Positions 5,101 through 31,096 of a DNA stretch of 34,585 nucleotides are shown in pieces. Position 1 is the stretch's first letter, and the number at the start of each line of letters is the position of its first letter. The DNA is taken from IMG/VR virus record IMGVR_UViG_3300042292_000592, positions 1 through 34,585 of that record, one strand, 5' to 3'. This DNA comes from a virus. Both the position numbers and the translations under genes were made by a program. The notes under the pieces were generated by a model. The model worked only from the letters and a program-made list of their open reading frames with translations, was not told where the DNA came from and ran no database searches.

Positions 5101-5778
5101 ATGTCAGCACCAAATATCGTAGGCGTAACAAACATCAAAGGGAAAACAGCAGTTCTTGCTGTTACAACTACGGCTACACCTATCGTCAAAAACGAGGGTA
5201 GTAGCGCAGGCACAACAATTGTTGTTACCGCCAGCGGCTCATCTGCATATGTAGTTGGAGGCTCAAACAACGCAACTATTTCTGTTGTCCGTGGTGCAAC
5301 TTACACAATTCGGGTAAGCGCAGTTGGACATCCTTTTTGGATTCAGACATCGACGGGTGCGTATAACGCAGCCAATATCGTAACTTCTGGCATTACAAAT
5401 AACGGAACCGAGCTTGGCTATATCACCTATCAGGTTCCTGCTGATGCGCCAGACACTCTCTACTATGTTTGCCAAAACCACTCTGCTATGGCTGGTTCAA
5501 TCACGGTTACTGGTACCGCAAGCAACTCGGGCAAGGTATTTAAAGTTAACGCTCTTTATATCTCCAATGTTGACGGAACAAATAATGCAGATGTCACTGT
5601 TGATATCTTCCGTTCATCAACCGCATATCGTATTGTGAACACTGTTGTTGTTCCAGCAGATGCGGTTTTAGATGTTATTTCAAAAGCGTTTTACCTTGAA
5701 GAAGGAGACTCTTTGCGACTCACAGCAAGTGCTAACTCTGACCTTGAAGCCGTGTGCAGTTACGAAGAAATTTCGTAA
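5101..5778 (+). CDS. Virion protein with a cupredoxin-like (type 1 copper) domain
   Basis: The 225-residue protein has an N-terminal strand region (1-38), a domain at about 39-141 and a C-terminal beta domain (about 142-225; VFKVNALYISNVDG, ADVTVDIF). The middle domain carries HPFWIQT (H77) and YYVCQNHSAMAG (C124, H127, M130). The order His...Cys-x2-His-x2-Met is that of type 1 copper sites: the 47-residue His-Cys gap equals that of plastocyanin and the Cx2Hx2M spacing equals that of amicyanin. The same domain recurs in the hub protein at 26747, about 70% identical without gaps. The C-terminal part resembles proteins placed beside fibres. GGAGGATAA precedes the ATG. Copper binding and purpose are inferred. 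A copper-free structural or lectin-like use of the fold is possible. Confidence 0.7.
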   Translation: MSAPNIVGVTNIKGKTAVLAVTTTATPIVKNEGSSAGTTIVVTASGSSAYVVGGSNNATISVVRGATYTIRVSAVGHPFWIQTSTGAYNAANIVTSGITNNGTELGYITYQVPADAPDTLYYVCQNHSAMAGSITVTGTASNSGKVFKVNALYISNVDGTNNADVTVDIFRSSTAYRIVNTVVVPADAVLDVISKAFYLEEGDSLRLTASANSDLEAVCSYEEIS

Positions 5779-11254: not shown

Positions 11255-11261
11255 TGAGGTA

Positions 11262-11270: not shown

Positions 11271-11278
11271 AATAGGAT

Positions 11279-11476: not shown

Positions 11477-11487
11477 GAGGAAGTAAT

Positions 11488-12054: not shown

Positions 12055-12088
12055 TAATTAAGTAAAAAAAATAATTTAGCAAAGGCAA

Positions 12089-12129: not shown

Positions 12130-12157
12130 AACCTGTTAACAAATAAAGGATGGTAAA

Positions 12158-12463: not shown

Positions 12464-12792
12464 GCGAAGAGGGAGACAGTGCATCCTCCCAGTCATGGGA
12501 GGATCTTCCTCTTCTAAAGTATGAATCCGAAGTTTTTGTAAAAACTGGTGCATGGATTAATTTTGATCTCCTTGAATCGAGTCTTACATTAAACGAATTG
12601 TTTCTTTTGTATAGAGCAGCTATGAATGAAACAAGCACTGCTATGAAAATCGCCGCAGCCTCTCAGGGTGCTGAAGTTGATTTCGATGATGACTGGTATG
12701 ATCCCGCACCGATTGTTGCTGCGAATTCACACGATATTCGCCAAATGGGATTCGGGTTGGGCTATGAGCAAGTTCCTGTTTCCAATGATTAA
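12158..12792 (+). CDS. Tail assembly chaperone, long frameshift form (gpGT-like)
   Basis: The -1 frame is open from 12424 to 12792 and has no start with a ribosome binding site near the zero-frame stop. Its sequence continues sensibly: LLGEEGDSASSQSWEDLPLL, then KTGAWINFDLLESSLTLNEL, FLLYRAAMNETSTAMKIAAA, DDDWYD and a Gly/Gln-containing tail. If slippage occurs at CCCTTCC the fused product is 211 residues (100 from the zero frame, 111 from the -1 frame). The FLLYRAA...MKIAAA helices resemble the T portion of GT proteins. The WYD and FGLGYE ending is acidic, as is common. Only a minority of ribosomes is expected to shift. The joint is inferred from frames and the RNA signal. Confidence 0.75.
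12451..12514 (+). promoter_or_regulatory. Programmed -1 frameshift signal of the tail chaperones
   Basis: CCCTTCC (12451-12457; zero-frame C-CCT-TCC) is the best slippery candidate: the P-site re-pairs perfectly (CCT to CCC), the A-site only partly (TCC to TTC). After an 8-nt spacer, GAAGAGGGAG (12466-12475) pairs with CTTCCTCTTC (12505-12514), ten pairs with one G-U. After a 7-nt bulge, ATCCTCCC (12483-12490) pairs with GGGAGGAT (12497-12504) around a 6-nt loop. The two stems stack directly on the 3' side. GGGTTCA at 12442-12448 is the alternative slip site. Confidence 0.65.
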
Positions 12793-12809
12793 TCTTAAAA
12801 ATTATTTCT

Positions 12810-12838
12810 TTGCTTTAATTGCCCTAATATGCGATAAT
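12810..12838 (+). promoter_or_regulatory. Possible extended -10 promoter for the tape measure gene
   Basis: TTGCTT (12810-12815) lies exactly 17 nt before GATAAT (12833-12838), which is preceded by TGC, giving an extended -10. Start of transcription near 12845 would leave about 10 nt before ATG 12855, where no ribosome binding site is visible. The -35 match is weak (three of six). Confidence 0.35.
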
Positions 12839-12854
12839 TACTATTGGCTAAATT

Positions 12855-15800: not shown

Positions 15801-18800
15801 AAAGAAGCTACTAAGCCAAAGGGTAAGTCACCCCGTGGTTCGCCAAAGAAAGTAAAAACAGCAGTTGAAAAAACTGTTGGTGAAGCTGTTAGTGCAGCAA
15901 CTGCACCTCTAAAGGAGACAGTTGGGGCAGTAACAGAAGCATCGGCTGGAACAAGTGCTGCAGTAGAAAAAGCAACAAAGAATGCCGTTAAAGCTGGGAA
16001 GGTTGTTTCAAAAGCAACAAGAGCCCCGGCTGGACAAGCTGCTCTCGTAAAGCTTTCCTATAAAGAAATTGCTGATTTCTTTGATAGCGCTGGTCAGCAA
16101 ATCCCTGATGAATATGAATTTATCAAAACAACTCAAAGAGAAATGGAGCTCACCAAGAAGGCCAAATCTGATTTCTTTAAAAATCTTACAAAGCAATTTG
16201 AAAAGAAATCACCAACACCTTTTGGATCCTTTAGAGGTAAAAATTTCTTTGCGTTTAACGCAGAAAGGTCTGCGTCCTCTAGACCGTATCTGCCAGTAAT
16301 AAGTCAACTTTTGTCGGATCAAACGGACCCGAGAGTTAATCCTAGAATGTCTCAAACAATGAATGTTAATGCTAAAAATAAAGCAAGAAATTATGTTGGC
16401 TCGATTCAAGAAAAACTGGCACTTGATCAAGCAAGCAGAAGGTCGGGTGTATCAAATAGAGAAAAAGCCGAAGCGGTAAAGCAAAGGAAAGCGGCGCAGG
16501 CCGCAAGGCTTGCAGCATATTCCTTTGAAGACGGACCCCCTGTTGGTGTTGAACAAATACAAGGGCCGGCTAATGCTAATGTAATTAAAAAATTACAAGA
16601 TGATTTGGATGCTGCTAAAAAAGCATTCGATGCTCCAATTCAGCAGAAAGATTTGATTGGTTCATCAGTCGAAAAAGTTAGAGCAAAACAGAGGGGCGTG
16701 ATAAGGAAATCTCAAGATGCTCTGGTTAAGGCACTAATGTTGAACACTGAAAAATTCATCCCAGCGACCCCGGCAACTTCTGCACTATTAAATGTGCAAA
16801 ATCAAATGCCCTCGTCTCAGCTTCAAAACATGCCGTCTCAGAAAAAAGATTATTCAAATCTTCTTTCAAATGTGGTTAAAGATATTGACGCAACAGGTCT
16901 TGATCCAAAAGCCAGGGTGCTGTATGAAACAAATTTGCAAAAACAAATTGACTCTTTAAGAACAACAAAAGATAAAGTGCTTAAGCAAGTAATTGAAGAA
17001 GAATTTGCGCAAATCAAAGCAGATAACCTTTCTAAAGCGCCGTTAGGTAGCAAAATTACTTCTGCTGGAGAAAAGAAGATTAGAGAGCAAGCTCTTCGGA
17101 ATGTAGCTCAAAAAAGAGGTCTGGACAGTATTCAGGCATTCAACCCTCTCTCAGTTGATTACGATTCCGGTGCTGAAAAAGCATTGTTGTCGAATAAAAA
17201 AGCTGTTGATGCTACAAAGAAAATGTTTAAAAACATGGGAGACAGTGGAAAGGTATTTGCTGGTCATCTTGACGAAATGGTTGCAGATGTTTCTCCTGCA
17301 AAAACGGCAGCCCGAACTAAAGCGCTTAACCAATTCAAAAAGATGCGGGACAAGCTACCAGCTGTCAGCGGCGGAATGGGTGCTGTCGGCAAGGAGATGC
17401 AATCACTTAGGGATATTGTAAATAAATCTATTGATGATTTCGTAAATCAGCTTCCAAAGTCGTTTGGTGACAATAAGAAAGCAATCATTCGACAAGTTGC
17501 TCAGGCTACTGTTGGAGCAACTCCTGGAGCAGGAGTTGGACCAGTACTTGCAACAAGTCTTGATTTGATGAATCAGGAAGTTGATAGCGCTACTGCTAAA
17601 TCAATTAAATCTAGATTAGATAATACTATTAAAGATTTATTGATATCAATTAAACAAACCCCTCAACTAGGTAAAGGTAGCGCCAGCCCGGGCCAAATGG
17701 CGAAGAAAAGTTTGGGGAGGGTATTTGAAAAAGCCAAAGGTCTTGCTAAGAATGTAACGGCTAATCATACATTGCTTGTGCAATCCCTGTCTGATATTTT
17801 GACTGACTCCCTGGCATCGGGTACATATGCTGTTGCAGAGGCTGAGAAGGGCGCTCAGGGCATATTTAAACGAGCAGCTGGTCTTGCAGGAACCCTTAAG
17901 CAAAATACATTAATTGAAATGGGCAATATTGTCCAAGATGTGAGGAGAGGGAAGGCAGTTAAGGCGCAACGCTCTGCGGCAGGAGTCGGACCAGCTCAAA
18001 CTAGCCGACCCGCTGTTCGAAAGGCATCTCAGGCAGCAAGTAAGCTTGAAACAGAGGCAATACTAAATAAAGTAACAGGAGGGAAAGGAGCCGCACCTGC
18101 TGCACCTGCTGCTCCCGCTGCTCCCGCTGCTCCTGCCGCACCTGCTGCACCTGCCGCACCTGCCGCACCTGCTGCGCCCGCCGCACCTCCTGCGCCTCCT
18201 GCGCCTCCTGCGCCTCCTGCGCCCCCAGCGCCCCCTGCTCTTGCTGATGAGCAAATCACAAAAGCACTAGGCAAGGCGAAAGTTGCACAGATTGCTAAAA
18301 TAGAAAGTCAGATTGCCGCAATGACCGCAGAGCAGCTTGCATCAGAAAGCGGCTTAAAAGTCCAAAAGGCTCAGAAAGAACTAAAGGCAAAATTAAATAC
18401 ACTCGTTAAAGCACAAACTGAAGTCGCCGCTGCCCAAGCTAATGCTGAAGAGCTAGGTCGTTCTACAACAACTAGATTAAAAGCAGCAAAAGAAAAACTT
18501 GTTGGAGCAACGAATAATGCAAAGACCGCTACCGATAAGCTCGCCAGAGCGGTCTCCGCTGCAGCGACTAGTGTTGCTGCACCAACCTCTGCTCCGAAAC
18601 CCGCACCCGCTCCTCGGCTTGGCCCTACTGCACCCGCTACACCTTCTGCCGTTACTGCTCCGAAGATAAATATAAAAGACCTGAAAGGTATTGTGCCAGA
18701 CACCGACTCGGGTTCAAGTCGAATAGTCAAGGCGGTTAAAGAGACCGCTGTAAGTTTTGATAAATCACTCGCTAACTTCTTTAAAGGACCGAACTTCTTC

Positions 18801-21800
18801 CAGGGACCAAACATTTTCCAAGGGAAGCTGATAACGGCGGATAAGTTAAAATTCAATATAACCGATAGAGCAAAAGATGCGTCTAGGCTTGCCAAAGCAA
18901 GAGGCGATTTGATTGATCCAGATGATCCACGGGCTGTTGCGGCAAGGCAATCAATGGCAAGAAGGAATTTTGCTAAATTAAAAGGTCGGATAGAAACAAG
19001 AACTGGTAAGTCATTAACAGACGATCAACTTGCTAGCCTAGGCAGAAAAACTGGATATACTTTACCAAAAGGTTTAGTTTCAAAACCAAAAGCTCCAGTA
19101 TTCCCAACACCAACTGGTGCTGCAATACCAAAAGCCCCTTTCTTCCCAACGCCATCTGGTGCTCCGATAGATAAGATTACAAAATCACTAGGTACTCTTC
19201 AAGCAAAAGTTTCGAGTGTATCAAATGCTATAACTAGCAAATTAACTGGCGCAATGTCATCCGCATTTAAAGGTGCATCAGATGCCGCTGCGGGATTGGG
19301 CTCGGCTTACGCAAGAGCTGGCGGTGGCTTTATCGCCTCGCATCTAAAGTTGGCATCTTCTGGGTTGAGTGTGCTGGCAGAGGGGTACCGAATTTCATCT
19401 ACGGCGGCCTCAACATTTACCAAGATGTCGCTAGCAGCTTCTCGTGCTGCGGATAAAATTGGTTTTAGCGGTAAATTAACGAGCTCAGTAATAAAAGATC
19501 TCGGATTTGCGTTCGGAAAAGTCGGAAGCGTACTCGCCTCAACAACTAATGCGGAATTTAAAACATTCCTATCCACCTTGCAAAGATCAAAAGTAACTAA
19601 GGCCTGGACATTTATGTTGACTGCGGGAATGATTACTTTTGTTAAATCATTGAAATCTGCCATTATGTATCTCAATATATTTGGCAATACCCGTGCAAGA
19701 GTGGAAGCAATGCGGGCGGCAATCGCAGCTCTGCCTGCTGGAGTTAGTAGGTTTAGAAAATCACTCGTAGGCCTAGCTGCCTTCACTCAGATAGGAGCGG
19801 CTCTAAAAGCTGGCTTTGGCGGAATTCTAAAAACAATTTTCTCAGTATTAGCAATTGCTATCAAACTCAATGCCGCAATGCTGTTGTTTGCTCCAATAGT
19901 TATTGTAATAGGCGCAATATTTTTCCAATTGAAGAGAGGAGTCACTGATAATTCTAAAGCAATAGCTATCTTGAAAGAGGGAGTTATTTTAATAAAGGGA
20001 GCCTTCTATGCATTAGCAAATCCAATTATGGACATTATAAATGCTTATGGTGGATTTACAAAAGCAACCGATCAAAGCGGAAAAACTGCTGGTGTAATTT
20101 ACACCCTTGCAAGGGCGTTCAGGGCGGTTGCTAAGGCATTTAATGACTTCGCAAGAGGCACTGGCGCTAGTTTTATGAAGAATACGCTCGGCCCTGTTGT
20201 TATTAGATTAGTAAACAGATTCATCCTTTTAGGTAGAGCGATAAAAGGGGCGTTCTCGGGATCCGCAAGTGCTAGCAATAATTTTAAAGCATTCCTCCTT
20301 TCTCTTCTGTATGAAGTTTTGGCGTTTACTTCAAAAATTCTTGGTTATATGGAAACACTACTCCCTCATCTTGGCGGTGTTATCGGAGCGATCATTGGAG
20401 GTGTTGCAAAAGCAACCATAAAGATGCTTGAATACCTTGGCGGTTACGCTCAAGAAATCGCCATCCTATTTGGATCGCTAATAGCCGGAATCGGTATTGC
20501 CCTGCTTCCATTTACGGTGGGGGCCTCAGCAAAAATTGTTGCCGTGGGTGGGGCGCTGGTAACAGTCGGGCTTGCTGGGGAAGTGATTGGTAAGAAACTT
20601 GCTAAATCTAGTGGTGATATCGATAAATGGGCTTCTGGAGTTGGTCAGTCAATAGCTAACGGATTGGGCTCGGTCGCTGGGTCTGTAAATAACAAAGTTA
20701 AAGAAGGCATGGACAATATAGATAAATCGTATGCCAAGAAAATTGGAAGAGGAATAAATAAAGCACTTGCTGATGGAACAGGAGACCCTGATGGTATTAA
20801 GAAGGCAATAGATGAGTCCCTTAAGAAAAATGCCCCCGCCGCAACGGCTGGTGGAGAGGCGCTGGGGTCTGCAATAGCTAAGGGCATGAAAAAGAAGTTG
20901 CTCGAAGTCAAAGAAGACTTTACTGGCAGATTCTTCTCCAGAGCTGATGCTGGTGTCGATAGATACATTGACACATTAAAGCGAGGTCTTGATGATCAGA
21001 AAGATAAGGCACTAGAGGCTTTTGATGCGCAAATAGATGCAATTGGTCAGCTTGCTGACGCAGAAGAAAGATTGACGGCAAAAATAGAGTACGAAGAAAA
21101 GAGAAGGGAGATGATCAGGACTAAGGCCCTAGATCGAGAAAATTATTTACGAGAAAGAAAAGTTGCTTCGTATGAAGGCAGAACGGAAGATGTTCGATCA
21201 CTCGACCTCTCATTCCAGAAAACAGAAAGGGATTCCAATAAAGAGCTTAAAGATTTTGATTTAGAAAGAGTTAAGACGCAGCAGTCTGAGCAAAGAGAAA
21301 AGGCTATTGATGTAATCAATAAAGAAAAAGATTTGCTCGTTAAGCAGTATGAGCAAATGTTTAGAGACTTTGATAAGCAAATTGAAGACATCAAGACAGT
21401 TGGCTTCTCCACAGAGGATGAGTTTAAAACATTGCTATCAAGACTTGGTGTTGCATCTCAAGGTTTCTCCGATGAAATAGCTTCAACATTTGATACTGCA
21501 ATGAATAGCCTGCCTATGTCTATAAATGAAGTGAGTGACAGGTCAATCGGTATGTTCTCGACTTCAATGGATAAGCTGGTGGATGAGGCTAAATCAAAAT
21601 TTGGAGCAGCCAATGGCACTGCTAATGCTACATCAATACTTGGAGCCGCATACATGTTGGCAACAGGAATGCCTGATGCATTCAAGACAGCATTTAATGA
21701 TGGAATCATTGCCCAGTATGTAACTCCTTGGTCTAGCAAAGTTACTGCATCAATTGCTGGAATCATACCTAGAGATTTGTGGGTTGAGGCAGCCGGTTTC

Positions 21801-24800
21801 GCACTTGTTGAAATGGTCAATGAGTTGAAACGGAGACTTGTTGCCCTCAAGGGAACTTTATGGGCGGAATTTAAGGCAATCTTTGCCGCAATGCCTGAAG
21901 CTGATTTCCAAAGAGTATTTGGCGGAGCATTTGCAGATCTAGAGGATATTAAAGCAAAGATGACTGGGTTATTCGCTGAGATAGTAAGTATCGCAGCAGA
22001 GATCAACACAATCGAAATAAGCAGGGAGCAGGCGGACAGTGGAGGTGGAGGTGAAGGTGCGGCTAAAGGCTCTACTGACGGAATTGCACCTGGAGAGTCG
22101 ATGGGCAATAGGGATCCAAAATATGGAGAGCACCTAGTAAGAAGACCTCTCATCCCTAAGGTAGCTATTGAGGTTGGTGACGAAAAGAGTGGCGGTGGTT
22201 TCTTTAGCTCGATAGCGGATGGTGCAAAAAATCTTGCCGACATGCTTGGTCCTGTTAAAACAGCAATACTTGGAGCCGTTGGTGCAATAGCAGGGTTCTT
22301 CTCTCTTAAAATTTTGTTTGGAATAATACAAGCTGCCTTTGCAAAGATAATTTCGTTCATTGCAGTTTTGGCTACGGCAAGTGCGGCAGTAGCGCTAACA
22401 GTGGGTGTGATCATAGGAGTGCTCATATATTTATACATTAAAGTGGAGGCCTTTAGGAATTTTGTAAACAATGTCTTTACAAAGGCATGGGAAATTCTTG
22501 GCACTGTAGTCACGGGTGTGTTTGATGGAGTAATGCTGGCAATCAATGGAGTTTGGGATTCCATAAAGGCAATCGGTCAGAACATATTGGGCTTCATGAA
22601 AGAAATATGGGGTGCCATTGGCGGAATTGTTAAAGATACTTTCAACAAGATTGTTTCATTCTTTGTCGATGGTTACAATGCTCTTAAAGACAATTTTGCA
22701 AACCTAGCATCTAGCATTTGGAATTCCTTCAGCGGAGTAGCAGGTGCTGTGTTTGATGGGATTAAGGAAATACTGTCCCCCATAATGGAGCTTGTAGGAA
22801 AAATTGCTGCAGGAATCGGCATCGCTATTGGCATTATTGTTGGCGCTGTTATGGCTGTCGTGGGCGGAGTAGTCGTCGTAATTGTAAACATCTTTAACGC
22901 AATCAAGGGTCCATTATTCTCAGTAATAGGTTTCGTCATGGATGTCATTGCGAAAATATACGATATCGTAGGCCCAGTTCTTGAGTTCGTAATTGGTATG
23001 GTTGCGAAAGTCATATCTGCTCCGTTTAAAATAATAAATGGAGTGATTGATTTGGTTATCAGCATGGTATCTGGGATATCGGGAGCGATTATCCCAATTG
23101 GTTCAATAATTCTTAATGTCCTTTTAGCGCCGTTTAAATTGTTGATAGATGTATTCAAAAAAATTGCTGAAAATCCAATTGTCAGCTGGGTTGCTAGATT
23201 CGTCGCCATGCTTGCTCTTGTAGCTGCAGTTATTGCAACATGGGGTGTCAAGCTAGCTCTTGAAGCCGTTTGGGGCATGATTAAGAAAGTCGGGGACATA
23301 CTGTCCAGTCTGGCAAAGATTGTAATTGATGTGGTTGGCACTGCGTTTAGTTTTGTTAAAGACTTGGTTCTTGGCGTGTGGGATGCAATCTATAGTAAAG
23401 TTACAGGGTTTATCGATTGGTGGCATGAGAATATCGGATCCCTCTGGTTAATATTTGTTGCGGTATTCGCAATCTTGTACGAAGCGGCAAGATGGTTCTT
23501 TAGTTGGATGAAAGACACATTCGGTCCAATACTTGCAAAAGTATGGGATGGTTTCAAGGATGCTGTTGGTGTTGTGTGGGATCTTTTGAAGCAAGTTGGT
23601 TCTTGGATTGGATCGGCATTCAGTGCGGCTTGGGATGTGTTAAAGAAAGCAGCTTCATTGTTCTGGGACTATCTGGGCGGGGCTATTGGTTTTGCTTGGG
23701 GCATCATGAAGACAGTTGCTTCATGGATCGGCACAGCATTTGGAGCCGCTTGGGATTTCTTAAAGAAAGCAGCTTCACTGTACTGGGATTACCTAAGTTT
23801 CATCATTCCGTTTGCATGGGGTGTTTTGAAAAAAGTTGCTGGCTGGATTCAGACCGCATTTGTTTTTGCATGGAATGTCCTTAAGACTGCCATTAGTTTT
23901 GTGTGGGATGTAATTAAGGAAGGCGTAAATGCTGTACTTCCAACGCTCACTATTTTAGCTAATTTTATCGGAACAGTACTAGGGGCGGCTTGGGATATTT
24001 TGAGGCAGGGTATTAGTTTTGTTTGGGATGCAATTACAGTTGGCTTTGATTTGGTATCCCCAACTCTTGGCTTCTTTGCTGACATTGTGGGCAATGTCCT
24101 TGGGGGCGCATGGGGATTTTTGAAAGAGGGTGTGAATTTTGTCTGGGATGCAATCACAGCGGGTTGGAGCTTTATATCCCCAACTCTCGGCTTCTTTGCT
24201 GACATTGTGGGCAATGTGCTTGGTGGTGCTTGGAATGTTCTAAAAGAAGGTATTGGCTTTGTTTGGGATGCAATCAAAACGGGCTGGAACTTTGTGTCTC
24301 CAATACTCGGTTTCTTTGCTGATGCCATAGGAAAAGTTATTAGAGGTGCTATTGAGAAAGTTATAGATATCTGGAATGCCTTGAAGGGAGCGTTCCAAGC
24401 GGTTTGGGATTTTGTTCAGCCGATAATTCAAAAGTTTGGTGACTTTATAGGTAAGGCTATTAGGGGCTCTATTGAAAAAGTCGTAGAAATTTGGAATGGA
24501 CTGAAGACGGCGTTCCAGTCAGTTTGGGATTTCATTCAACCAATAATTTCAAAAATTGGTAATTTCATTAAAGATGTAATTGGCGGTGCAGTTGATTTCA
24601 TCTCAGCAGCGATAAGTGCGATCCCAAGTGTGTTCAAAACTATTCTGAACAGCATAGCGGGGCTATTCAATAGAGTAGTCGATCTTCTCGGCAACTTCGC
24701 ATTCCCCAAAACAATACTCGGAATCCCTGTTCCAATCATTGGCGGTAAAAAGGTTTCTGACTTTATTGAGCTACCTTATCTTCCAACACTTTACAATGGC

Positions 24801-25289
24801 GGCAAGGTTGGTTCGTACATGAAGGGCGGTATGACATACATGAATGGAGGTATGACATATATGAAGGGCGGCATGATGTATGGTGCTGGCGGCATGACAT
24901 ACGGCCCAGCGCAACAGGCTGTTCCTGCGATCTTGCATGGCGGAGAATATGTAATTAATCATAAAGCGGTGCAAAGAATTGGAACCGATGCTCTTGACCG
25001 CATGAACTCGCTTAGAATATCAAAGCCGAATTTGCCAACAATGCCAAGTGTTCCAAGTATAAATATGTCTAACATGAGAGCGAGCAATGTGCCTGGAGCG
25101 TCCAGCACTGGCACTGGTTACTCCACTCAGAATGTAAATATTTATGTTGATAATTTCATAGGCGAGCCTGAGTGGTTTAAGGGTATGATGAAAGAATACA
25201 ATACAAAAGTATTGCCAAGAAATCAAAAAGCGGCGGGGTTGGAAAATAGAGTAATCAATACCTATAACGGCATTAACAGGGGGATGTAG
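12855..25289 (+). CDS. Giant tail tape measure protein, 4144 aa
   Basis: The longest gene in the window. It fixes tail length, is wrapped by the chaperones, fills the tube and is ejected with the DNA. The N-terminus (SDTGDLTARLGIDASVTGAD) and the region around residues 330-405 (LKDIADAFPEVSAAATTFGL, GASANSIKVSLQRMV) match TP901-type tape measure cores. Residues about 760-2150 are Lys/Ala/Pro-rich low complexity with an (AAP)n tract (1746-1795). About 2200-2640 are hydrophobic helices. About 2708-2848 are a charged coiled coil. About 3200-3900 are hydrophobic and Trp-rich, including 40-residue repeats. Met/Gly repeats (3989-4017) and the usual tape measure ending GGEYVINHKAVQRIG close it. No lytic domain is evident. 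At 1.5 angstrom per residue, it predicts a tail of about 620 nm. There is no ribosome binding site. Confidence 0.93.
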   Translation: MSDTGDLTARLGIDASVTGADSVSGLAQNVASLSQQLLQLSQGAIRQASVQDQLSKALDRTKLSTSLARTALHDYRQSAALANTVIRQTEKHLIALDAAQRKVAASGGMTPAIQKSYAQTNTHLNSMIASSGKLEKVMKGNAIEAYGNKISKAGIAAQRSSYYMAAAVTAPILQAFRTAFFNYTKLEREQVRLTKLISDGFGTGAEAIVLARKEMEKMNAPLDKITRTFGVSRILVQGLAGDFAELGVSTAFFTNLDGQVSNAITELVDLTVKLEKLGNLDIGQSQAFIQSVYQNILRVRRDLATQGGYTLDLTDADTMQKIIAELTGQLAIFNLVENKTTLSLKDIADAFPEVSAAATTFGLSMSETTALLAPMVAAGYQVGASANSIKVSLQRMVAMTKQNTGIIQGLNQALGDDFQYSAGVGMENIQMLVDGFNSLLSIKGEQGTLELFARLFGVRQGPRMETSIRQLAAFQTELDKVGSAERTIANELENKVNQRLKAYGYEGVSLKKIVDLSNLHRMATKEVNGEYTQQAKLVQEGQKDAAKALQGVYSDTTDFIAKVGTEAGKIYFMEAMGGASFAGAQMEQELNAAIDTAAIRFDKLREALLGIGRAIIPVVDSVVKIILPLFQKVEDFLKGLGPGTRKALGFLVFAALLIPQFKIIMATMKVLFGGAISGFGKMIFGANGLRSSLMGVKAVTVSLQDILTNPKITRGYNKLTQYTDDTFLLEQKRDAPGYRKGILNRRKMVPDASGVSLPVRELLENSGMADPSGKKSVKSILGASSKLGLKNTEELIDSMLRDMGAIPAKIADASTKATESTAKSIAKSLKGTIFQNNTFIGNKFGGGTAGPGGTGTGPRTPKTPATGGTPIGAPITPRSGGRPASGFGSRKAFGGISDVLIGEEERLADSMATPSRYFTDPRFDQASSRKISIPSAKDMGKAATISAPIAAAVKEVADGAKAELEALSKTVTKEVEKAKEVVKEATKPKGKSPRGSPKKVKTAVEKTVGEAVSAATAPLKETVGAVTEASAGTSAAVEKATKNAVKAGKVVSKATRAPAGQAALVKLSYKEIADFFDSAGQQIPDEYEFIKTTQREMELTKKAKSDFFKNLTKQFEKKSPTPFGSFRGKNFFAFNAERSASSRPYLPVISQLLSDQTDPRVNPRMSQTMNVNAKNKARNYVGSIQEKLALDQASRRSGVSNREKAEAVKQRKAAQAARLAAYSFEDGPPVGVEQIQGPANANVIKKLQDDLDAAKKAFDAPIQQKDLIGSSVEKVRAKQRGVIRKSQDALVKALMLNTEKFIPATPATSALLNVQNQMPSSQLQNMPSQKKDYSNLLSNVVKDIDATGLDPKARVLYETNLQKQIDSLRTTKDKVLKQVIEEEFAQIKADNLSKAPLGSKITSAGEKKIREQALRNVAQKRGLDSIQAFNPLSVDYDSGAEKALLSNKKAVDATKKMFKNMGDSGKVFAGHLDEMVADVSPAKTAARTKALNQFKKMRDKLPAVSGGMGAVGKEMQSLRDIVNKSIDDFVNQLPKSFGDNKKAIIRQVAQATVGATPGAGVGPVLATSLDLMNQEVDSATAKSIKSRLDNTIKDLLISIKQTPQLGKGSASPGQMAKKSLGRVFEKAKGLAKNVTANHTLLVQSLSDILTDSLASGTYAVAEAEKGAQGIFKRAAGLAGTLKQNTLIEMGNIVQDVRRGKAVKAQRSAAGVGPAQTSRPAVRKASQAASKLETEAILNKVTGGKGAAPAAPAAPAAPAAPAAPAAPAAPAAPAAPAAPPAPPAPPAPPAPPAPPALADEQITKALGKAKVAQIAKIESQIAAMTAEQLASESGLKVQKAQKELKAKLNTLVKAQTEVAAAQANAEELGRSTTTRLKAAKEKLVGATNNAKTATDKLARAVSAAATSVAAPTSAPKPAPAPRLGPTAPATPSAVTAPKINIKDLKGIVPDTDSGSSRIVKAVKETAVSFDKSLANFFKGPNFFQGPNIFQGKLITADKLKFNITDRAKDASRLAKARGDLIDPDDPRAVAARQSMARRNFAKLKGRIETRTGKSLTDDQLASLGRKTGYTLPKGLVSKPKAPVFPTPTGAAIPKAPFFPTPSGAPIDKITKSLGTLQAKVSSVSNAITSKLTGAMSSAFKGASDAAAGLGSAYARAGGGFIASHLKLASSGLSVLAEGYRISSTAASTFTKMSLAASRAADKIGFSGKLTSSVIKDLGFAFGKVGSVLASTTNAEFKTFLSTLQRSKVTKAWTFMLTAGMITFVKSLKSAIMYLNIFGNTRARVEAMRAAIAALPAGVSRFRKSLVGLAAFTQIGAALKAGFGGILKTIFSVLAIAIKLNAAMLLFAPIVIVIGAIFFQLKRGVTDNSKAIAILKEGVILIKGAFYALANPIMDIINAYGGFTKATDQSGKTAGVIYTLARAFRAVAKAFNDFARGTGASFMKNTLGPVVIRLVNRFILLGRAIKGAFSGSASASNNFKAFLLSLLYEVLAFTSKILGYMETLLPHLGGVIGAIIGGVAKATIKMLEYLGGYAQEIAILFGSLIAGIGIALLPFTVGASAKIVAVGGALVTVGLAGEVIGKKLAKSSGDIDKWASGVGQSIANGLGSVAGSVNNKVKEGMDNIDKSYAKKIGRGINKALADGTGDPDGIKKAIDESLKKNAPAATAGGEALGSAIAKGMKKKLLEVKEDFTGRFFSRADAGVDRYIDTLKRGLDDQKDKALEAFDAQIDAIGQLADAEERLTAKIEYEEKRREMIRTKALDRENYLRERKVASYEGRTEDVRSLDLSFQKTERDSNKELKDFDLERVKTQQSEQREKAIDVINKEKDLLVKQYEQMFRDFDKQIEDIKTVGFSTEDEFKTLLSRLGVASQGFSDEIASTFDTAMNSLPMSINEVSDRSIGMFSTSMDKLVDEAKSKFGAANGTANATSILGAAYMLATGMPDAFKTAFNDGIIAQYVTPWSSKVTASIAGIIPRDLWVEAAGFALVEMVNELKRRLVALKGTLWAEFKAIFAAMPEADFQRVFGGAFADLEDIKAKMTGLFAEIVSIAAEINTIEISREQADSGGGGEGAAKGSTDGIAPGESMGNRDPKYGEHLVRRPLIPKVAIEVGDEKSGGGFFSSIADGAKNLADMLGPVKTAILGAVGAIAGFFSLKILFGIIQAAFAKIISFIAVLATASAAVALTVGVIIGVLIYLYIKVEAFRNFVNNVFTKAWEILGTVVTGVFDGVMLAINGVWDSIKAIGQNILGFMKEIWGAIGGIVKDTFNKIVSFFVDGYNALKDNFANLASSIWNSFSGVAGAVFDGIKEILSPIMELVGKIAAGIGIAIGIIVGAVMAVVGGVVVVIVNIFNAIKGPLFSVIGFVMDVIAKIYDIVGPVLEFVIGMVAKVISAPFKIINGVIDLVISMVSGISGAIIPIGSIILNVLLAPFKLLIDVFKKIAENPIVSWVARFVAMLALVAAVIATWGVKLALEAVWGMIKKVGDILSSLAKIVIDVVGTAFSFVKDLVLGVWDAIYSKVTGFIDWWHENIGSLWLIFVAVFAILYEAARWFFSWMKDTFGPILAKVWDGFKDAVGVVWDLLKQVGSWIGSAFSAAWDVLKKAASLFWDYLGGAIGFAWGIMKTVASWIGTAFGAAWDFLKKAASLYWDYLSFIIPFAWGVLKKVAGWIQTAFVFAWNVLKTAISFVWDVIKEGVNAVLPTLTILANFIGTVLGAAWDILRQGISFVWDAITVGFDLVSPTLGFFADIVGNVLGGAWGFLKEGVNFVWDAITAGWSFISPTLGFFADIVGNVLGGAWNVLKEGIGFVWDAIKTGWNFVSPILGFFADAIGKVIRGAIEKVIDIWNALKGAFQAVWDFVQPIIQKFGDFIGKAIRGSIEKVVEIWNGLKTAFQSVWDFIQPIISKIGNFIKDVIGGAVDFISAAISAIPSVFKTILNSIAGLFNRVVDLLGNFAFPKTILGIPVPIIGGKKVSDFIELPYLPTLYNGGKVGSYMKGGMTYMNGGMTYMKGGMMYGAGGMTYGPAQQAVPAILHGGEYVINHKAVQRIGTDALDRMNSLRISKPNLPTMPSVPSINMSNMRASNVPGASSTGTGYSTQNVNIYVDNFIGEPEWFKGMMKEYNTKVLPRNQKAAGLENRVINTYNGINRGM
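18090..18239 (+). repeat. Ala-Ala-Pro / Pro-Pro-Ala tract in the tape measure gene
   Basis: About fifty codons read GCN GCN CCN in a 9-nt period, shifting to CCN CCN GCN at the 3' end. Silent positions vary (cct, ccc, gct, gca, gcc, gcg), so it is old enough to have drifted or is held by selection on protein. It should form an extended, flexible linker. Short direct repeats of this kind slip easily, so length may vary between relatives. Confidence 0.85.
23581..24350 (+). repeat. 120-nt tandem repeats (40 aa, Trp-rich) in the tape measure gene
   Basis: A Trp codon preceded by Ala recurs in exact 120-nt register at 23631, 23751, 23871, 23991, 24111 and 24231. The unit pattern is roughly hydrophobic-x-G-x-hydrophobic-GAAW-x-hydrophobic-LK-x2-hydrophobic...FVWD. 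Some neighbouring units are nearly identical in DNA: the bases coding GFFADIVGNVL agree between 24071 and 24191. This implies recent duplication within a longer history of 40-residue units. The segment is strongly hydrophobic and may interact with the host membrane on ejection. Confidence 0.85.
24819..24905 (+). repeat. Met/Gly/Tyr tandem repeats near the tape measure C-terminus
   Basis: Four short units of the form (M/Y)(K/N)GGMTYM are encoded in tandem (MKGGMTYM, NGGMTYM, KGGMMYGA, GGMTYG), residues 3989-4017, just before the conserved GGEYVINHKA ending. The methionine density (about one residue in four) is exceptional. I know no function; flexible packing or oxidation-sensitive or metal-facing surface are speculative options. 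Confidence 0.75.
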
Positions 25290-25684
25290 TGAATACTAAC
25301 TCTTTATTGACCATCAATGGAACTGCGGTGACTGAGCATGGTAGGAAAATTTCACTTACTGAAGAGATTTCTGCTAATGATATTGAGCTCGCATCCGGGC
25401 TTAGGCGGCGGTTCTACAGTACAAATAAAAAACAGTTTTCTGTAACTTGGTCCTACCTACCTGATCTGCAATCAAAAACTTTAGATGCAAAACCGGGTCG
25501 TAATTTTCTACTGGCACTGGCGAACACTTCTGCCGTAGCGCTAGTTAGCATCGCCCTTGAGCCCGGTGAATCTCCCGTTGAGTATTCATGTTATCTTGAT
25601 TCTTATAGTGAATCATTACTTAGAAAAGACTTGTCAACTAAATGTTCATATTATGACGTTTCTTTGACATTGACGGAGCAATAA
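25289..25684 (+). CDS. Distal tail protein, short paralogue
   Basis: The 131-residue protein starts at GTG 25289, overlapping the tape measure stop by one base, with AGGGGG 7 nt upstream. The sequence is beta-rich: LTINGTAVTEHGRKISLTEE, RRRFYSTNKKQFSVTWSYLP, ARN-like PGRNFLLALA, and YSESLLRKDLSTKCSYYDV. It matches the last 130 residues of the next gene throughout (TEHGRK/TSHNRK, SVTWSYLP/NLSWSWLP, YSESLLRKDL/YSETLVRRDL), so the two are paralogues. Position right after the tape measure suggests a ring at the tail tip, equivalent to the distal tail protein or its partner. No enzymatic motif is seen. Confidence 0.7.
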   Translation: MNTNSLLTINGTAVTEHGRKISLTEEISANDIELASGLRRRFYSTNKKQFSVTWSYLPDLQSKTLDAKPGRNFLLALANTSAVALVSIALEPGESPVEYSCYLDSYSESLLRKDLSTKCSYYDVSLTLTEQ

Positions 25685-25687
25685 GAG

Positions 25688-26746
25688 ATGTCAGATAGTT
25701 TCTACTCTTTTAGTGAACCGTTTAACAGTGGTATAGATTTCTATAAAGCTGACGCTGCTGATGTTACAATTGATATTACTGTTAGTTCATCATTAGCAGC
25801 AGAAGTAAAAAAAATATCTCTTGCAAACACTGCAATCAATTCAAATTTAAACCTTACATCTAATTTGAGCAAGATAGCTTATGCTTCCGCTAATCTAGCA
25901 GTAGATGGCGCAACAGTAGTTGTCGCAACAGAAAGGCAGGATGGTTCCGTTGTAATAACGGCAGAAGTCTTTGTTGCAACTAATATTACAAAAATAGCAT
26001 TCGCCAATGCGTCTCTATCGATTGAGTCAAACGCCGCGTCCAGTGCTACTAAGCTATCAGCGGCTTCTTGCTCGCTAAGTTCTGAATCAAACTTAACATC
26101 TGTTGCAAAAAAGATTGCCAAAGCTCTGTCGCAAATAGCCCCCAACTCCACAATGACGGTTGGAGTGAAAAGGATTGCTACTGCTCTTGTAAGTCTTACT
26201 GGACAAATTAATCTATCAATTGCTGGAAAAATTACTCTTGCAACAATAAGAATAAATATTTTAAATAACGCAAATATTAGTGTGAAGTCAATTAAGTTTG
26301 CTATTGATGGGATTATGGACCTGTCGGCTATTCAGTCGTATATGTTAATTGATGACAAACCAATCACAAGCCATAACAGAAAGTTCGACTCCAGCTTGGA
26401 GCCCATATTTGTTCAAAATAAAAATTGGAACAACAGGAAGACTAGGTATTATAAATCTACATCTAGATCGGGCAGGCGAGTCTTTAATCTGTCATGGTCA
26501 TGGCTTCCCGGTTCCCAGGACCACACTGTCGATGGCAATAGGGCGAGGGATTTTATAAGCAGTATCGCTTCGGATCCAAGTCATCATACTTTTAAAATAA
26601 TTGATCTAGACGAGACAGGAATCACCCCTCCCACCGAGACGAGCTATAATGTATTAGTTAAAGACTACAGCGAGACGCTTGTTCGAAGGGATTTAGATAA
26701 TGGTGTATACTGGTGGGATTGCTCAATAAGCATGGAGGAAGTGTAG
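25688..26746 (+). CDS. Distal tail protein, long paralogue with repetitive N-terminus
   Basis: The 352-residue protein has two parts. Residues about 20-210 are irregular beta repeats rich in Ala/Ser/Asn with a recurring KIA-x-A...L...SNLTS pattern (KKISLANTAINSNLNLTSN, SKIAYASANLAVDGA, TKIAFANASLSIESN, KKIAKALSQIAPNSTM, KRIATALVSLTGQIN). From about 218 (LIDDKPITSHNRKF) to the end the sequence parallels the previous gene. A duplicated tail-tip subunit with an added solenoid-like arm is the simplest reading. The ATG at 25688 has a weak ribosome binding site (TAAGAG); the next gene is served by GGAGGAAG inside this one's end. Confidence 0.7.
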   Translation: MSDSFYSFSEPFNSGIDFYKADAADVTIDITVSSSLAAEVKKISLANTAINSNLNLTSNLSKIAYASANLAVDGATVVVATERQDGSVVITAEVFVATNITKIAFANASLSIESNAASSATKLSAASCSLSSESNLTSVAKKIAKALSQIAPNSTMTVGVKRIATALVSLTGQINLSIAGKITLATIRINILNNANISVKSIKFAIDGIMDLSAIQSYMLIDDKPITSHNRKFDSSLEPIFVQNKNWNNRKTRYYKSTSRSGRRVFNLSWSWLPGSQDHTVDGNRARDFISSIASDPSHHTFKIIDLDETGITPPTETSYNVLVKDYSETLVRRDLDNGVYWWDCSISMEEV

Positions 26747-29700
26747 ATGCTTGAATACGGCCTGTATGGCAAGGAAATATCAAGCTCTTTCAATAGCGCC
26801 TACACATCGATATCGCAAAAAGTAAAACCACTGATCATAGTGGATTGGCTAGATAGTCGTCATGTCGATAAGTTTGGAAACACTGAGATTGCCTCAACAA
26901 CATCTACATTATCCCAGCCGACCAGTGCCTTTGTGCAGTCAAGCGCATCGGGTATGCTCGCCAATGGCAGGTCTTTGTCAGAAAGAGAAATACAATTCAA
27001 TAGATCACGCCATGCTAATTTTTATTTTACTCCAAATGAATCAATTAATGGCATAGAACGACAGTCATTTACTTGGGCTGTGTGCGATGCTAAAGATGTA
27101 AATGGTAAAGTGATTACAGCAAATGGTCAATGGCATTGCCTTCCTTCTACGAAGGATGAAAATTATGAATTCGGCTATCAATCTTCGTCAAAAAGCACAA
27201 GCAATTTACATGCTACCCTGAACGGCTATGAGTTTTCCTCCCCGGTTGTAATGACATATGCATTTACAGAAAGAAAAGTTAATGTTATTAATGTAATAAC
27301 ATCTGAGTACAATGGTCAAATTAAATCTTATAATGTAAAAGCATACAATCAAACTGTTAATTTAGTTTACAATGAAGATGCTGAAATACCAGAAGATTCT
27401 TATTTTTTAGAGCACAATTTAATTGGTGTATCTAGTAATAATATTAATAAAATAGTTGTTACTGTATACACAACAAAGAATCCTTTGGATCATGCAAGGG
27501 TTAATGAAGTGTGCCCGATTTACAGAGAGGATATGACTGATTATGTCATTAACTTTGATGTCTCAAAAGTAAGAGATGTCCATGAAACCAGTCTGCCAAT
27601 AGGCGGAAGCGGCAGCTCGACATCTTCAATAACTTTTGATAACGGCGGCAAAGATTTTAATTTGTTTAGTTCATCATCAACATACGGCAAGTACATGAAG
27701 AAAGACATTCGTGTAAAAGTCTCCGCTGGGTGGGGTATCGGTAGTGCAAATCAAGAGTCGGCCTCTGCCGTACTATCTGCAAATGTCACTTCAACAAGTA
27801 ATGTTTGGACAGTTAACAGCGTCAACGATTTCCCAGCGGGCGGGGTTGGTGATGACTATGTTTTAACTATCAATAGTAGTAATATTTATAAAGAAAGAGT
27901 CTTGGCTCGAAAAGGTACTGGTAATTCATTTGATATTATCGAAAGGGGAATCGGAGGAACAGTTGCGAGAAGCCATGCTGCTGGGTCCGCAATATTTTTT
28001 GATGCGTTTGAATACGCACCGTATGGAATATTTTATGTTGATGAATGGCAGGGTTCATCATCAAGCATGACAGTAAGTGCCAATTTAACTGATCGAAGCA
28101 AGTTTGGTCAAGAAAAAATGATTACAAAAGGCTTTCTACTTCAAGAGGTGACGGTAGCGGAAGCAGTTGAGCATTTGACGCTGATGACTAATTATCCAAA
28201 ATCAGATATTGAATATCTTCTGAATCCAGCGAAAACTTATGCCAAAAGCAATTGCATTCTTCATTTGGGCTTTGATGAAAAAGATGTGGACAGGGCGAGC
28301 GCTCAAAGGATTGTTTCAAGTTCCTTAAGGGCTAGAATAGTAGAAATACCATCTACTGATTTAAATTCGGTGCGAGATATTAAGCTGGATGCAAATGATA
28401 GGAACCGTTCTTCTTATGAGAAGGCTCTTGATATAAATGGTTTTATCGCCCCCTCATTAACCACGACATCGAAAGAGATATCATCAAATAATGTTGTCGC
28501 TCTAAACTTTGTTTCGGGTAATTTTACGTCAAAAAATAATGATGTAATTGATAGCTATTTCAATGGCGTTTTTGATGGTTACTACATACCAGCAGAATCT
28601 GGTTTAAGAAACATAGTCATATCAATTAATAAAGGCGGAGTTCGTGTTTATCTGAATAAGATTAAAATTATTGATGAATGGTATGTGATAGATACTGGCA
28701 CTAATACGCCAGAAGTCCTCTATTCTGATTCATACGATATGGTTGCTGGAAAACCCTATGAATTAAGGATTGAATTTTTTACTGAGCAGCACATTGAAAA
28801 TGAGCCATTTAAGATATCATTGCTAACTGAGCATGATTCAACTCTATATTATATTGACTCTAGCGAGTGCTACACAATGGTTGCTGGCGATAGAATCGGG
28901 GTGAAGAATGAGAGCTCTTATTTAACATTTGCATCAAACACATGGACCCCAACAGCCAATGTGGATTATGTAAATAGGTCCTCAAGGACAAATGATGCCG
29001 TATACATAGGCCCAGTTAAAATCTCTGAGCCATCCGGGGTTGTCTCGGATCAAGAAAGCAAAAGTATTTTACTTGAATCTAATTCATACTTAAGAGTTCC
29101 TTATCATATATCTTATGATGTAACCAACTCATCAAGCGCCTCGCATACTGGCGCTTTCTCGATTGAGCTGTATGCGAAATTTCACACTCCAAGCGTGAGC
29201 GTGATTGCGGATCCAATTACCGTCACAAATAGTGGTGCATCCAGCTATTTAGTGAACGGAGTCCCTAATGCAACAATCGCTATGGTTCGCGGGGGGCTTT
29301 ACACATTTCAAGTTAACGCAACTGGTCATCCATTTTGGATTCAAACATCACCTGGCGCCCACAATCCAGCAAATGTTGTAACTTCTGGAATTGTAAACAA
29401 CGGAGCTGCTGTTGGGACCATCACATTTCAAGTTCCTGCTGATGCCCCAAGCACTCTGTATTATGTTTGCCAAAACCATTCCGTAATGGCTGGAACAATA
29501 ACTGTCACGGGAACGACCAGCCCACATGGATCATTCATGGGCGACGGGGAGTATGTTAGCAACTGGAATAACTCAAACTCATCTAGCGGCTTCGAGTTTT
29601 TTAACAATTCTTCAGAAAACGGTTTCAAAATAAAAGTTCTTGCTGCAAATTCTGCTGTTTTAACTAAAACAGTATCATCCGCATCCCCTCTTTTGAATTC

Positions 29701-31096
29701 ATCCTTTAGCCATGTGTCAGTGACATACGATGGCTCTTCCTTGAGATATTACACGAACGGTGTTTTGAGGGATACAGAGGTTGTTAATGGGACTCCAATT
29801 GCATGGTCATCAAAAGATGTTTGCATAGGGGGAAGGGGGGCTTCGTTTTCCGCAGGAGCAGAGCAACCACCTTCCGCCTTCAGAAGTTTTTATATTGATG
29901 AATTCGCTATCTTCAATAAATCCTTTAGTGACAAGGAAGTGTTGAATCATTACATAGAAACACAGATGCAGCCTGTTCGTATCATGCCATTCATTTACGG
30001 TAATGATGCAACGGTTCAGGAATTGATTGACAATATAAGCCTTGCTGACCTTGGAAGATTCTATATTGACGAAAACGGAATAGCTAAATACGAACACTAC
30101 CATAGGTTTTTTGAATCATCTATTGCTCAGCATGCAAATACTCAATTTACTCTTTCAGATACATCTAATATTATAGATGCAAGTTACGCAGTCCAGTTGC
30201 AAACCAATAAAGTTGTTGTTAAAGTAAATAAAGTTGCCAATAATTTAGTTTCAAAACAAGGATTGTGGAGAGCGGAAGACCCGACTACTCTTGGAATTAC
30301 ATCTCTTTCGTCTAATGTCAGTAACTCAGCTACTAGTATTAATGTTGTATCTACTGACAACCCTTTCTTCCCAAAATCTGGTTTTTTAAAAATTAATGAT
30401 GAAATCATTAAGTACAGTGGAATTTCTAGTAACTCTTTTACTTCGGTTGAGCGAGCACAGTTTGATACCGTTGCGTCATCTCATTTAACTACTAACCTTG
30501 TGAGAGAGGTAAAGAAGTACGATCTTCTATACGATAAATCACCGGCCTTCAGAGTTGAGAACCCGTTGATCACGAATCTTTCACTAGTGAACCCGCCTAA
30601 GGTAGAGATGATAACATTCAATCCCACTCCATACGGAGCTTTGCTCATTGTTGCCGCATCCAACAATACCGTTTCTGGTGAGATTGTGTATCTTGAGGGG
30701 GAAAACCCTCTTACCAATGAAAAGAATTTTGCTTCAATTGCGGGCATACCAGTTGTGTTTACCGAAAACACTGGCGATGTAAAAGAGAAGAAAGCCGTTC
30801 TTGATGACAACATTAGAAAGTACGGCCTTAAAGAGCTGATAATTGAAAATGAATTCATTACAGACCTTGACCACGCCCAGAGGTTGGCTACTTTTATTAT
30901 TGACAAAATGAGTGAGCCAGTCCCCATTATTAATTTAAACATCACTCCGATACCCACCATGCAATTAGGGGACCGAATACGAATATCTTCAATGGATTCT
31001 TTTGATATAATAGATGGAGACTATTGGGTTATAAGCTCTGACTTTAGCTATAGCGAGACATTATCTCAGTCAATAGTTGTAAGGAAGGTGGTTTAA
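26747..31096 (+). CDS. Tail tip hub-like protein with PA14, LamG and cupredoxin-like domains
   Basis: At 1449 residues it is the second largest gene. Residues about 1-430 are beta-rich hub-like sequence (FDVSKVRDVHETSLPIG, YAPYGIFYVDEW). About 590-705 resemble a PA14 sugar-binding domain (FNGVFDGYYIPAESGL, GGVRVYLNKIKIIDEWYV, MVAGKPYELRIEFF). A LamG-like fold begins at about 765 (SNSYLRVPYHIS, GAFSIELYAKF) and resumes at 927-1068 (VSVTYDGSSLRYYTNGVL, SFYIDEFAIFNKSFSD). Between its halves lies the cupredoxin-like domain (817-925; H861, C908, H911, M914). Two copies of a FPxxG...ERxxx...HAAG-like module lie at 337-421 and 1182-1252, and the C-terminus returns to hub-like strands. It probably forms the tail spike or hub that reads host glycans. 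GGAGGAAG precedes ATG. Confidence 0.75.
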   Translation: MLEYGLYGKEISSSFNSAYTSISQKVKPLIIVDWLDSRHVDKFGNTEIASTTSTLSQPTSAFVQSSASGMLANGRSLSEREIQFNRSRHANFYFTPNESINGIERQSFTWAVCDAKDVNGKVITANGQWHCLPSTKDENYEFGYQSSSKSTSNLHATLNGYEFSSPVVMTYAFTERKVNVINVITSEYNGQIKSYNVKAYNQTVNLVYNEDAEIPEDSYFLEHNLIGVSSNNINKIVVTVYTTKNPLDHARVNEVCPIYREDMTDYVINFDVSKVRDVHETSLPIGGSGSSTSSITFDNGGKDFNLFSSSSTYGKYMKKDIRVKVSAGWGIGSANQESASAVLSANVTSTSNVWTVNSVNDFPAGGVGDDYVLTINSSNIYKERVLARKGTGNSFDIIERGIGGTVARSHAAGSAIFFDAFEYAPYGIFYVDEWQGSSSSMTVSANLTDRSKFGQEKMITKGFLLQEVTVAEAVEHLTLMTNYPKSDIEYLLNPAKTYAKSNCILHLGFDEKDVDRASAQRIVSSSLRARIVEIPSTDLNSVRDIKLDANDRNRSSYEKALDINGFIAPSLTTTSKEISSNNVVALNFVSGNFTSKNNDVIDSYFNGVFDGYYIPAESGLRNIVISINKGGVRVYLNKIKIIDEWYVIDTGTNTPEVLYSDSYDMVAGKPYELRIEFFTEQHIENEPFKISLLTEHDSTLYYIDSSECYTMVAGDRIGVKNESSYLTFASNTWTPTANVDYVNRSSRTNDAVYIGPVKISEPSGVVSDQESKSILLESNSYLRVPYHISYDVTNSSSASHTGAFSIELYAKFHTPSVSVIADPITVTNSGASSYLVNGVPNATIAMVRGGLYTFQVNATGHPFWIQTSPGAHNPANVVTSGIVNNGAAVGTITFQVPADAPSTLYYVCQNHSVMAGTITVTGTTSPHGSFMGDGEYVSNWNNSNSSSGFEFFNNSSENGFKIKVLAANSAVLTKTVSSASPLLNSSFSHVSVTYDGSSLRYYTNGVLRDTEVVNGTPIAWSSKDVCIGGRGASFSAGAEQPPSAFRSFYIDEFAIFNKSFSDKEVLNHYIETQMQPVRIMPFIYGNDATVQELIDNISLADLGRFYIDENGIAKYEHYHRFFESSIAQHANTQFTLSDTSNIIDASYAVQLQTNKVVVKVNKVANNLVSKQGLWRAEDPTTLGITSLSSNVSNSATSINVVSTDNPFFPKSGFLKINDEIIKYSGISSNSFTSVERAQFDTVASSHLTTNLVREVKKYDLLYDKSPAFRVENPLITNLSLVNPPKVEMITFNPTPYGALLIVAASNNTVSGEIVYLEGENPLTNEKNFASIAGIPVVFTENTGDVKEKKAVLDDNIRKYGLKELIIENEFITDLDHAQRLATFIIDKMSEPVPIINLNITPIPTMQLGDRIRISSMDSFDIIDGDYWVISSDFSYSETLSQSIVVRKVV

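Follow-up and report, generated by a model that had tools for sequence, protein, structure and literature searches.

The tail-tip gene and its inserted domain

The window analysed here, the whole 34,585-nucleotide stretch of IMG/VR virus record IMGVR_UViG_3300042292_000592, carries on its plus strand an ORF of 1449 amino acids (26747..31096), the third downstream of a 4144-amino-acid tape-measure ORF. A match to phrog_10359 (best stretch residues 1251-1440, E 7.6e-20), together with this place downstream of the tape measure, marks the product as a tail-tip or minor tail protein, and its position and family make a receptor-reading role plausible. The parts of this protein described below also lie on the plus strand.

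A PA14-like domain occupies residues 600-685 (28544..28801; Pfam PF07691, 34.7 bits against a cut-off of 24). It is followed by a LamG-like jelly roll that appears to be split in two. The N-terminal part (29015..29185, approximately residues 757-813) ends ...SIELYAKFH, and is defined by its continuity with the C-terminal part in uninterrupted relatives, by the AF2 model and by VIA alignments that begin at model residues 1-15. The C-terminal part (29528..29971, approximately residues 928-1075) contains the only match to Laminin_G_3 (PF13385), at residues 943-1065 (48.6 bits, cut-off 27.6), a confinement to the right-hand side that is expected if the left part has been split off. Between the two lies a cupredoxin-like domain with its linkers (29186..29527; core 29213-29521), which gives the protein 113 amino acids more than the uninterrupted relative L071. 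The preliminary description of this DNA had placed the domain at 29213-29523, and these positions do correspond to residues 823-925 of the ORF; comparison with uninterrupted relatives makes insert and linkers together slightly longer, approximately residues 814-927, give or take one residue. H, C, H and M do stand at residues 861, 908, 911 and 914, as had been read, and the LamG strands that had been picked out are present, with GAFSIELYAKF starting at residue 802, VSVTYDGSS at 990 and IDEFAIFN at 1050.

Near-identity searching of window positions 10001-30000 against named phages gave no match, and neither did a tblastn search of named phages with the C-terminal part of the tail-tip protein.

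A domain within a domain

The AF2 model of residues 757-1078 (72-row alignment) has a pLDDT of 86.8 and a pTM of 0.75, and is weak at the linkers and the last residues. In this model the two LamG halves are predicted to close into one jelly roll around the insert, the outcome for which the preliminary description had proposed looking. VIA alignment of the model with single jelly rolls gave, in the best 50 rows listed, Z scores of 16.3-18.1 over 164-181 residues, with model ranges starting at residues 1-15 and ending at 314-322; because 164-181 aligned residues exceed the approximately 151 of the C-terminal half, both halves take part. The Pfam score above cut-off and the fold matches at Z 16-18 thus place this region, as modelled, among the LamG/ConA-like jelly rolls (PF13385), from which it differs in having an entire second domain within it. 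Top of the fold search were the binding-domain jelly rolls of clostridial neurotoxins, PTX3, PAPP-A and an arabinanase domain. A function taken from the neurotoxin domains at the top of this search was rejected, since the pentraxin, PAPP-A and arabinanase domains score alike, so that only the common jelly roll is shared with the neurotoxins.

The relatives of the tail-tip protein were collected by scanning IMG/VR with both parts flanking the insert, and with the domain itself. ORFs with both flanks numbered 103, of which 78 were unique. Ten of the 78 carry the insert, in three lineages: the window's own record, with near-identical or cut copies, and two further lineages (L007/L009/L011/L012 and L080/L081/L082/L091). 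In scans made without the domain as a query the figure is five of 73 unique ORFs, the L007/L011 lineage with the insert having been found solely through the scan using the domain. The same LamG lacking an insertion, which had been suggested as something to search for in related phages, was found in the other 68 unique ORFs; in 67 of these the flanks are 11-27 residues apart, against 125 in the window, and in the remaining one the junction was not measurable. Where the insert is present its position is identical in all three lineages, after ...KFH and before ...GDGEY.

The detection by Pfam of the right-hand LamG part only might be taken to mean that the flanking strands are two small independent domains in a row and not one split LamG. 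We regard this as extremely unlikely, since all of the insert-free relatives in which the junction could be measured join the flanks across 11-27 residues, and the model aligns as a single jelly roll. A linear row of separate domains is likewise contradicted by the uninterrupted relatives and was rejected. Because these relatives join the LamG flanks, the domain-in-domain architecture first proposed from the window alone can be considered settled, structure prediction and relatives agreeing. The closed LamG remains a predicted structure; the insertion and its optional presence are demonstrated at the level of sequence alignment.

The optional nature of the insert is clearest in one pair of alleles. 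L080 has the insert and L077 lacks it, while their amino-acid identities on either side are 96.9% and 96.7% and their DNA is 95.0% and 96.4% identical in the two main blocks. The difference between them (ORFs of 1421 and 1309 amino acids) is a clean in-frame insert of 336 bp, or 112 amino acids. Four changes are clustered in the 15 bp to the left of the insert in DNA that is otherwise near-identical, which hints at the start of a recombination tract just left of the L080 insert. Insertion by a mobile element was rejected, since no repeats bracket the insert as the ends of an element would. No direct or inverted repeats of at least 14 nt were found in window positions 29000-29800, and of the two pairs listed in positions 4500-5500 of L080, a direct one of 17 nt (82%, spaced 852 nt) and an inverted one of 15 nt, neither brackets the insert.

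The predicted cupredoxin fold and the candidate copper ligands

The AF2 model of the domain alone (34-row alignment) has a pLDDT of 89.6 and a pTM of 0.81, and is predicted to be a Greek-key beta-sandwich of the cupredoxin type. The top rows of a Foldseek search with it were rusticyanin, a CuA chimera with an amicyanin loop, and plastocyanin, with E values from 8.1e-5 (rusticyanin), and VIA aligned it with rusticyanin 2cal at Z 10.7 and an rmsd of 2.2 over 96 residues. At the level of the modelled fold, then, the initial reading of the domain as cupredoxin-like is borne out. In the rusticyanin rows whose chain numbering runs 34-155, residue 107 of the model is aligned with residue 155 of the chain. 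Model Met100 (equivalent to Met914) and rusticyanin Met148, the axial ligand there and a residue named in the titles of matched entries, each lie seven residues before that end of the alignment, and these ranges are consistent with the two methionines sharing the axial position.

Recognition by sequence profile is another matter. The window copy scores 12.3 bits against Copper-bind (PF00127), for which the cut-off is 21.2, and five of 34 members of the domain family match this model at E <= 10 (best E 0.0018). The amicyanin model TIGR02657 matches seven of the 34 weakly (best E 0.019) and the window copy not at all, and no copper family was found by Pfam in the whole tail-tip protein at E 1 or better. 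An hhalign comparison with one amicyanin gave a probability of 9.8%, with C, H and M aligned but not the first His. Searches of solved structures by sequence returned just one row (E 0.8) with the single domain as query, and weak rows alone, led by laccases (best E 0.019), with a profile. The At5g54830-like domain (PF25489) is matched weakly by six of 34 phage domains (best E 1.1e-4) and by three of ten cellular relatives scanned; those matches with scores given fall below its cut-off of 27 bits.

What the domain has in common with rusticyanin, plastocyanin and amicyanin is the modelled beta-sandwich and the order His-Cys-His-Met, with the last three residues in one loop (H861, C908, H911, M914). 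The spacing C-x2-H-x2-M is that of amicyanin (a sequence matching PDB 1aac end to end). Because these four residues are kept, with the short amicyanin loop, a type 1 site that binds a single copper ion is most likely. Unlike these proteins, which are free electron carriers, the phage domain is embedded in tail proteins, scores below the Copper-bind cut-off and has its copper assigned by inference.

Conservation of the ligands was counted in 148 unique domains gathered by an iterated HMM over the window, IMG/VR, 12 GenBank records and GTDB genomes; eight that were truncated or had a gap at a ligand were left out, leaving 140 in which all four positions are covered. In the sequence alignment, His861 (29327..29329) is H in 138 of the 140, Cys908 (29468..29470) and His911 (29477..29479) are C and H in all 140, and the candidate axial ligand Met914 (29486..29488) is M in 139. 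All four are present in 137 of the 140 (77/79 cellular, 43/44 IMG/VR, 17/17 GenBank), counts that lean upward because the locus scans used some ligand-containing patterns; the GenBank rows, from 12 records picked among 318 with matches, came by tblastn and are free of this bias. Thinning to 89 representatives leaves H in 87, C in 89, H in 89 and M in 88. Of the three rows that fall short, two are cellular and have Asn in the first His column, and the third is viral, with Gln replacing Met. The lack of the first His in L252 may be an alignment slip, since a His sits one residue earlier. Glutamine is a natural axial ligand of type 1 sites, as in stellacyanin. A second, diverged copy of the domain in L041 (5934-7307) has Gln as its axial residue (C-A-N-H-G-T-Q).

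The second copy of the domain in the window

The sole other match to the tail-tip domain within the record lies in a 225-amino-acid protein of the virion region (5101..5778, plus strand; domain approximately 5194-5529). The two copies had been estimated by eye to be about 70% identical, which proves accurate: the identity is 71% over query residues 2-103 (E 1.1e-44, at 5218-5523), or 65% over a 113-residue alignment, and on sequence their likeness is far beyond chance. The four candidate ligands are kept in both, as had been noted, H77, C124, H127 and M130 matching H861, C908, H911 and M914. Both copies also match the C-terminal domain of phrog_677 (positions 308-409 and 301-409 of 412, E 4.7e-18 and 3.2e-21). 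Neither corresponds to full-length phrog_677 ('baseplate wedge tail fiber protein connector'), about the last quarter of which, its final 100 or so positions, is all that is held in common.

The preliminary description had gone further, taking the sharing of the domain by two proteins to suggest its exchange between virion genes. Recent copying between these two genes was rejected, because their fourfold synonymous sites are 34% identical, a saturated level. Only an old relationship can be seen between them, the two copies falling in neighbouring clades of the domain tree. Exchange of a different kind is indicated below.

A second duplicated module in this virion region is implied by two neighbouring proteins (5779-6669 and 7523-8449), which match the same stretch of phrog_2295 (E 1.7e-41 and 7.3e-47).

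Probable movement between tail-tip lineages

The part of the exchange proposal that stands concerns tail-tip alleles of different phage lineages, and the evidence comes from the tip tree and from fourfold sites. A quick tree of the tip proteins was built without the insert, from rows of at least 900 amino acids thinned at approximately 98.5% (51 rows, five with the insert). On this tree the presence of the insert requires at least three changes, whether gains or losses, even counting well-supported branches only. In the domain tree (full-length rows thinned at approximately 93% similarity; 128 rows, few columns), in contrast, the inserts of all three lineages group together in a single clade (100/82). 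The fork joining this clade to the ORF-5101 type has support of 99/79, which is not full.

Fourfold sites of the insert are 62% identical between the window and L011, 55% between the window and L080 and 73% between L011 and L080, whereas those of the flanks are 33%, 30% and 35% identical for the same pairs (Fisher p 3e-4, 3e-3 and 5e-6). At these sites the average is 43% for domain pairs of 70-79% amino-acid identity and 49% for those of 80-89%, so that the insert values for window-L080 and window-L011 are only modestly high beside like domain pairs, and the contrast of the insert with its own flanks is the stronger point.

A single old insertion followed by many losses, with an insert that is simply more conserved than its flanks, would account for the shared site, the single clade and the similar right-hand linkers of the three lineages' inserts. 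But in all three pairs the fourfold sites are saturated in the flanks and unsaturated in the insert. The codons of the domain do saturate, as the 34% between the window's two copies attests, so no special synonymous constraint is seen, and we consider vertical descent highly improbable. Lateral spread of the module between tail-tip lineages is strongly indicated by these comparisons, most simply through recombination, with a relative of the ORF-5101 type as the source.

Distribution of the domain

The sequence family is not new: PHROGs already clusters it, and phage genomes carry it under names of structural proteins. Its identification as a cupredoxin whose type 1 ligand set is conserved, or its moves into and out of a LamG loop, were not encountered among the open-licence PMC papers listed in literature searches. 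By tblastn the domain occurs in 318 of 50,697 phage records, with identity below 60% in all, and the names of 312 of the 318 contain Synechococcus, Prochlorococcus or Cyanophage. Among the tail proteins of cyanophages the domain is widespread. The labels in the best 60 of the 318 matches are mostly of the baseplate wedge or tail fibre connector type, and those of the domain proteins in the 12 GenBank records are tail fibre, baseplate wedge or connector, long tail fibre, virion structural or hypothetical protein. In three cyanophage records the domain is C-terminal in proteins labelled gp9 or gp10, unlike the window's tail-tip protein in which it lies inside the LamG. With an almost invariant metal-ligand set and a model that reads as cupredoxin-like, a domain present in so many phage records gains some general interest.

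In IMG/VR, 64 domain loci were found, in ORFs of many kinds. A collagen-like run of at least five G-x-x triplets lies within 40 residues of the domain in 17 of 61 full-length phage rows, and the domain lies within 12 residues of the C-terminus in 11 of 51 phage rows with a closed 3' end. Among eight of the IMG/VR domain ORFs scanned with Pfam, one has Mtd_N and one an S74 chaperone.

The module is also found in cellular proteins, and may thus have a role that is not confined to tails. There are 69 cellular loci in 84,980 species genomes (43 in Bacteroidota by a count of titles, seven in archaea, the rest in others), with members 27-55% identical to the query, and the domain is C-terminal in 41 of 74 closed cellular rows. 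Its neighbours in ten cellular ORFs scanned, drawn from the 69 loci, include CHRD, Lipoprotein_15, collagen-like, starch-binding-type and T9SS sorting domains. Some cellular ORFs contain two or three matches to the domain (L244 3512-4657, L237 2291-5377, L208 2759-4309 and L189 3170-4450, one of the two in the last being weak at 1e-8). In an Ilumatobacteraceae MAG contig, a 290-amino-acid collagen-like protein with the domain at its end (L205, 1269-2138) adjoins the viral copies in the tree; this is possibly a phage contig binned into the MAG.

When viral structure models (BFVD) were searched, a ConA-like lectin protein from an uncultured phage was matched too. Further matches to the fold were small 'beta-sandwich' proteins from Pithovirus and Marseillevirus records (BFVD A0A481Z6J5, A0A481YVH3 and others), and the module may therefore reach into giant viruses that infect eukaryotes.

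A possible role in host contact

The tail-tip site illustrates clearly how an entire domain can come and go within a loop of another. The following arrangement is proposed. In the distal tail (tail-tip) protein of a long-tailed phage, a complete cupredoxin-fold domain would have entered, in frame, the loop that follows strand 804-812 of a LamG/ConA-like jelly roll, and the jelly roll would still close around it. Tail-tip alleles with and without this module circulate, and transfer between lineages would occur by recombination at the same site. The domain itself most likely acts as an accessory binding surface, stabilised by a metal that is probably copper and projecting from the tail-tip lectin, where it would add to or change the contact of the tail tip with the host surface. 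We infer the copper, the exposure and the host-contact role, and to the combined picture of an optional copper module, recombining between lineages and acting as an accessory host-contact surface, we give somewhat better than even chances. The module is a removable add-on, probably sited where the tail meets the bacterium, and its relatives are located in tail fibre and baseplate proteins.

The main rival is that the domain is an inert spacer or decoration, an interchangeable beta-sandwich like the Ig-like domains of tails, in which any metal would only stiffen the fold and nothing specific would be bound. Its presence or absence is, after all, tolerated within proteins that are 97% identical, and the module appears in many unrelated protein contexts, the collagen-like runs noted above among them. 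A spacer, however, has no need of an exact His-Cys-His-Met set, yet this is kept across viral and cellular members alike, and the sole axial change is to a residue that is itself a natural type 1 ligand. On balance the spacer seems unlikely, if to be taken seriously. The near-invariance of the ligands in the alignment is consistent with the specific job that the preliminary description had envisaged for the module.

More specific uses of a copper site can also be envisaged. Tailed phages of aquatic bacteria may carry true blue-copper adhesion domains that are exchanged into and out of a tail-tip lectin, the copper site helping to choose or engage the host through copper- or redox-dependent adsorption; this is a rather unlikely extension. 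More doubtful is a redox or metal bait, in which an active copper site at the cell surface would exchange electrons with, or offer copper to, a host receptor that is a metal-uptake or redox protein, in the manner of the 'Trojan Horse' idea for iron, with copper in its place. The complete type 1 ligand set and the blue-copper folds as nearest neighbours fit such a bait, and a hypothesis of metal in tail fibres exists for iron, iron-binding HxH motifs having been proposed in phage tail fibres under the name 'Ferrojan Horse' (PMC11705849). The likeness to the fibres as described there lies in a metal site proposed for a phage adhesion protein; the difference is that iron would sit on paired His residues, whereas the tail-tip domain is a cupredoxin with a Cys ligand. 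Against the bait, the recognised neighbours in the ten cellular proteins scanned point to no single redox pathway.

For the accessory host-contact surface that we prefer, the L080 and L077 tail tips, with and without the module, make its role directly testable.

The phage and its host

The GenBank matches of the domain suggested a cyanophage. Host markers were sought in 19 records, comprising the window, 15 contigs with tip homologues and three with the ORF-5101 type. WhiB scored over its cut-off in 17 of the 19, the insert-bearing L080 contig among them, and photosystem D1 (Photo_RC) in none, and a cyanophage host was rejected on these counts. Among 14 control genomes only Corynebacterium had a WhiB match. 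The window itself was found to have neither WhiB nor Photo_RC, so that its assignment comes through related contigs; as these carry WhiB, the phage most likely infects aquatic actinobacteria.

The tape-measure ORF (12855-25289) matches phrog_58, phrog_4200 and others, and also the endolysin-class phrog_971 (E 3.3e-14). Its length in a single ORF implies a very long tail.
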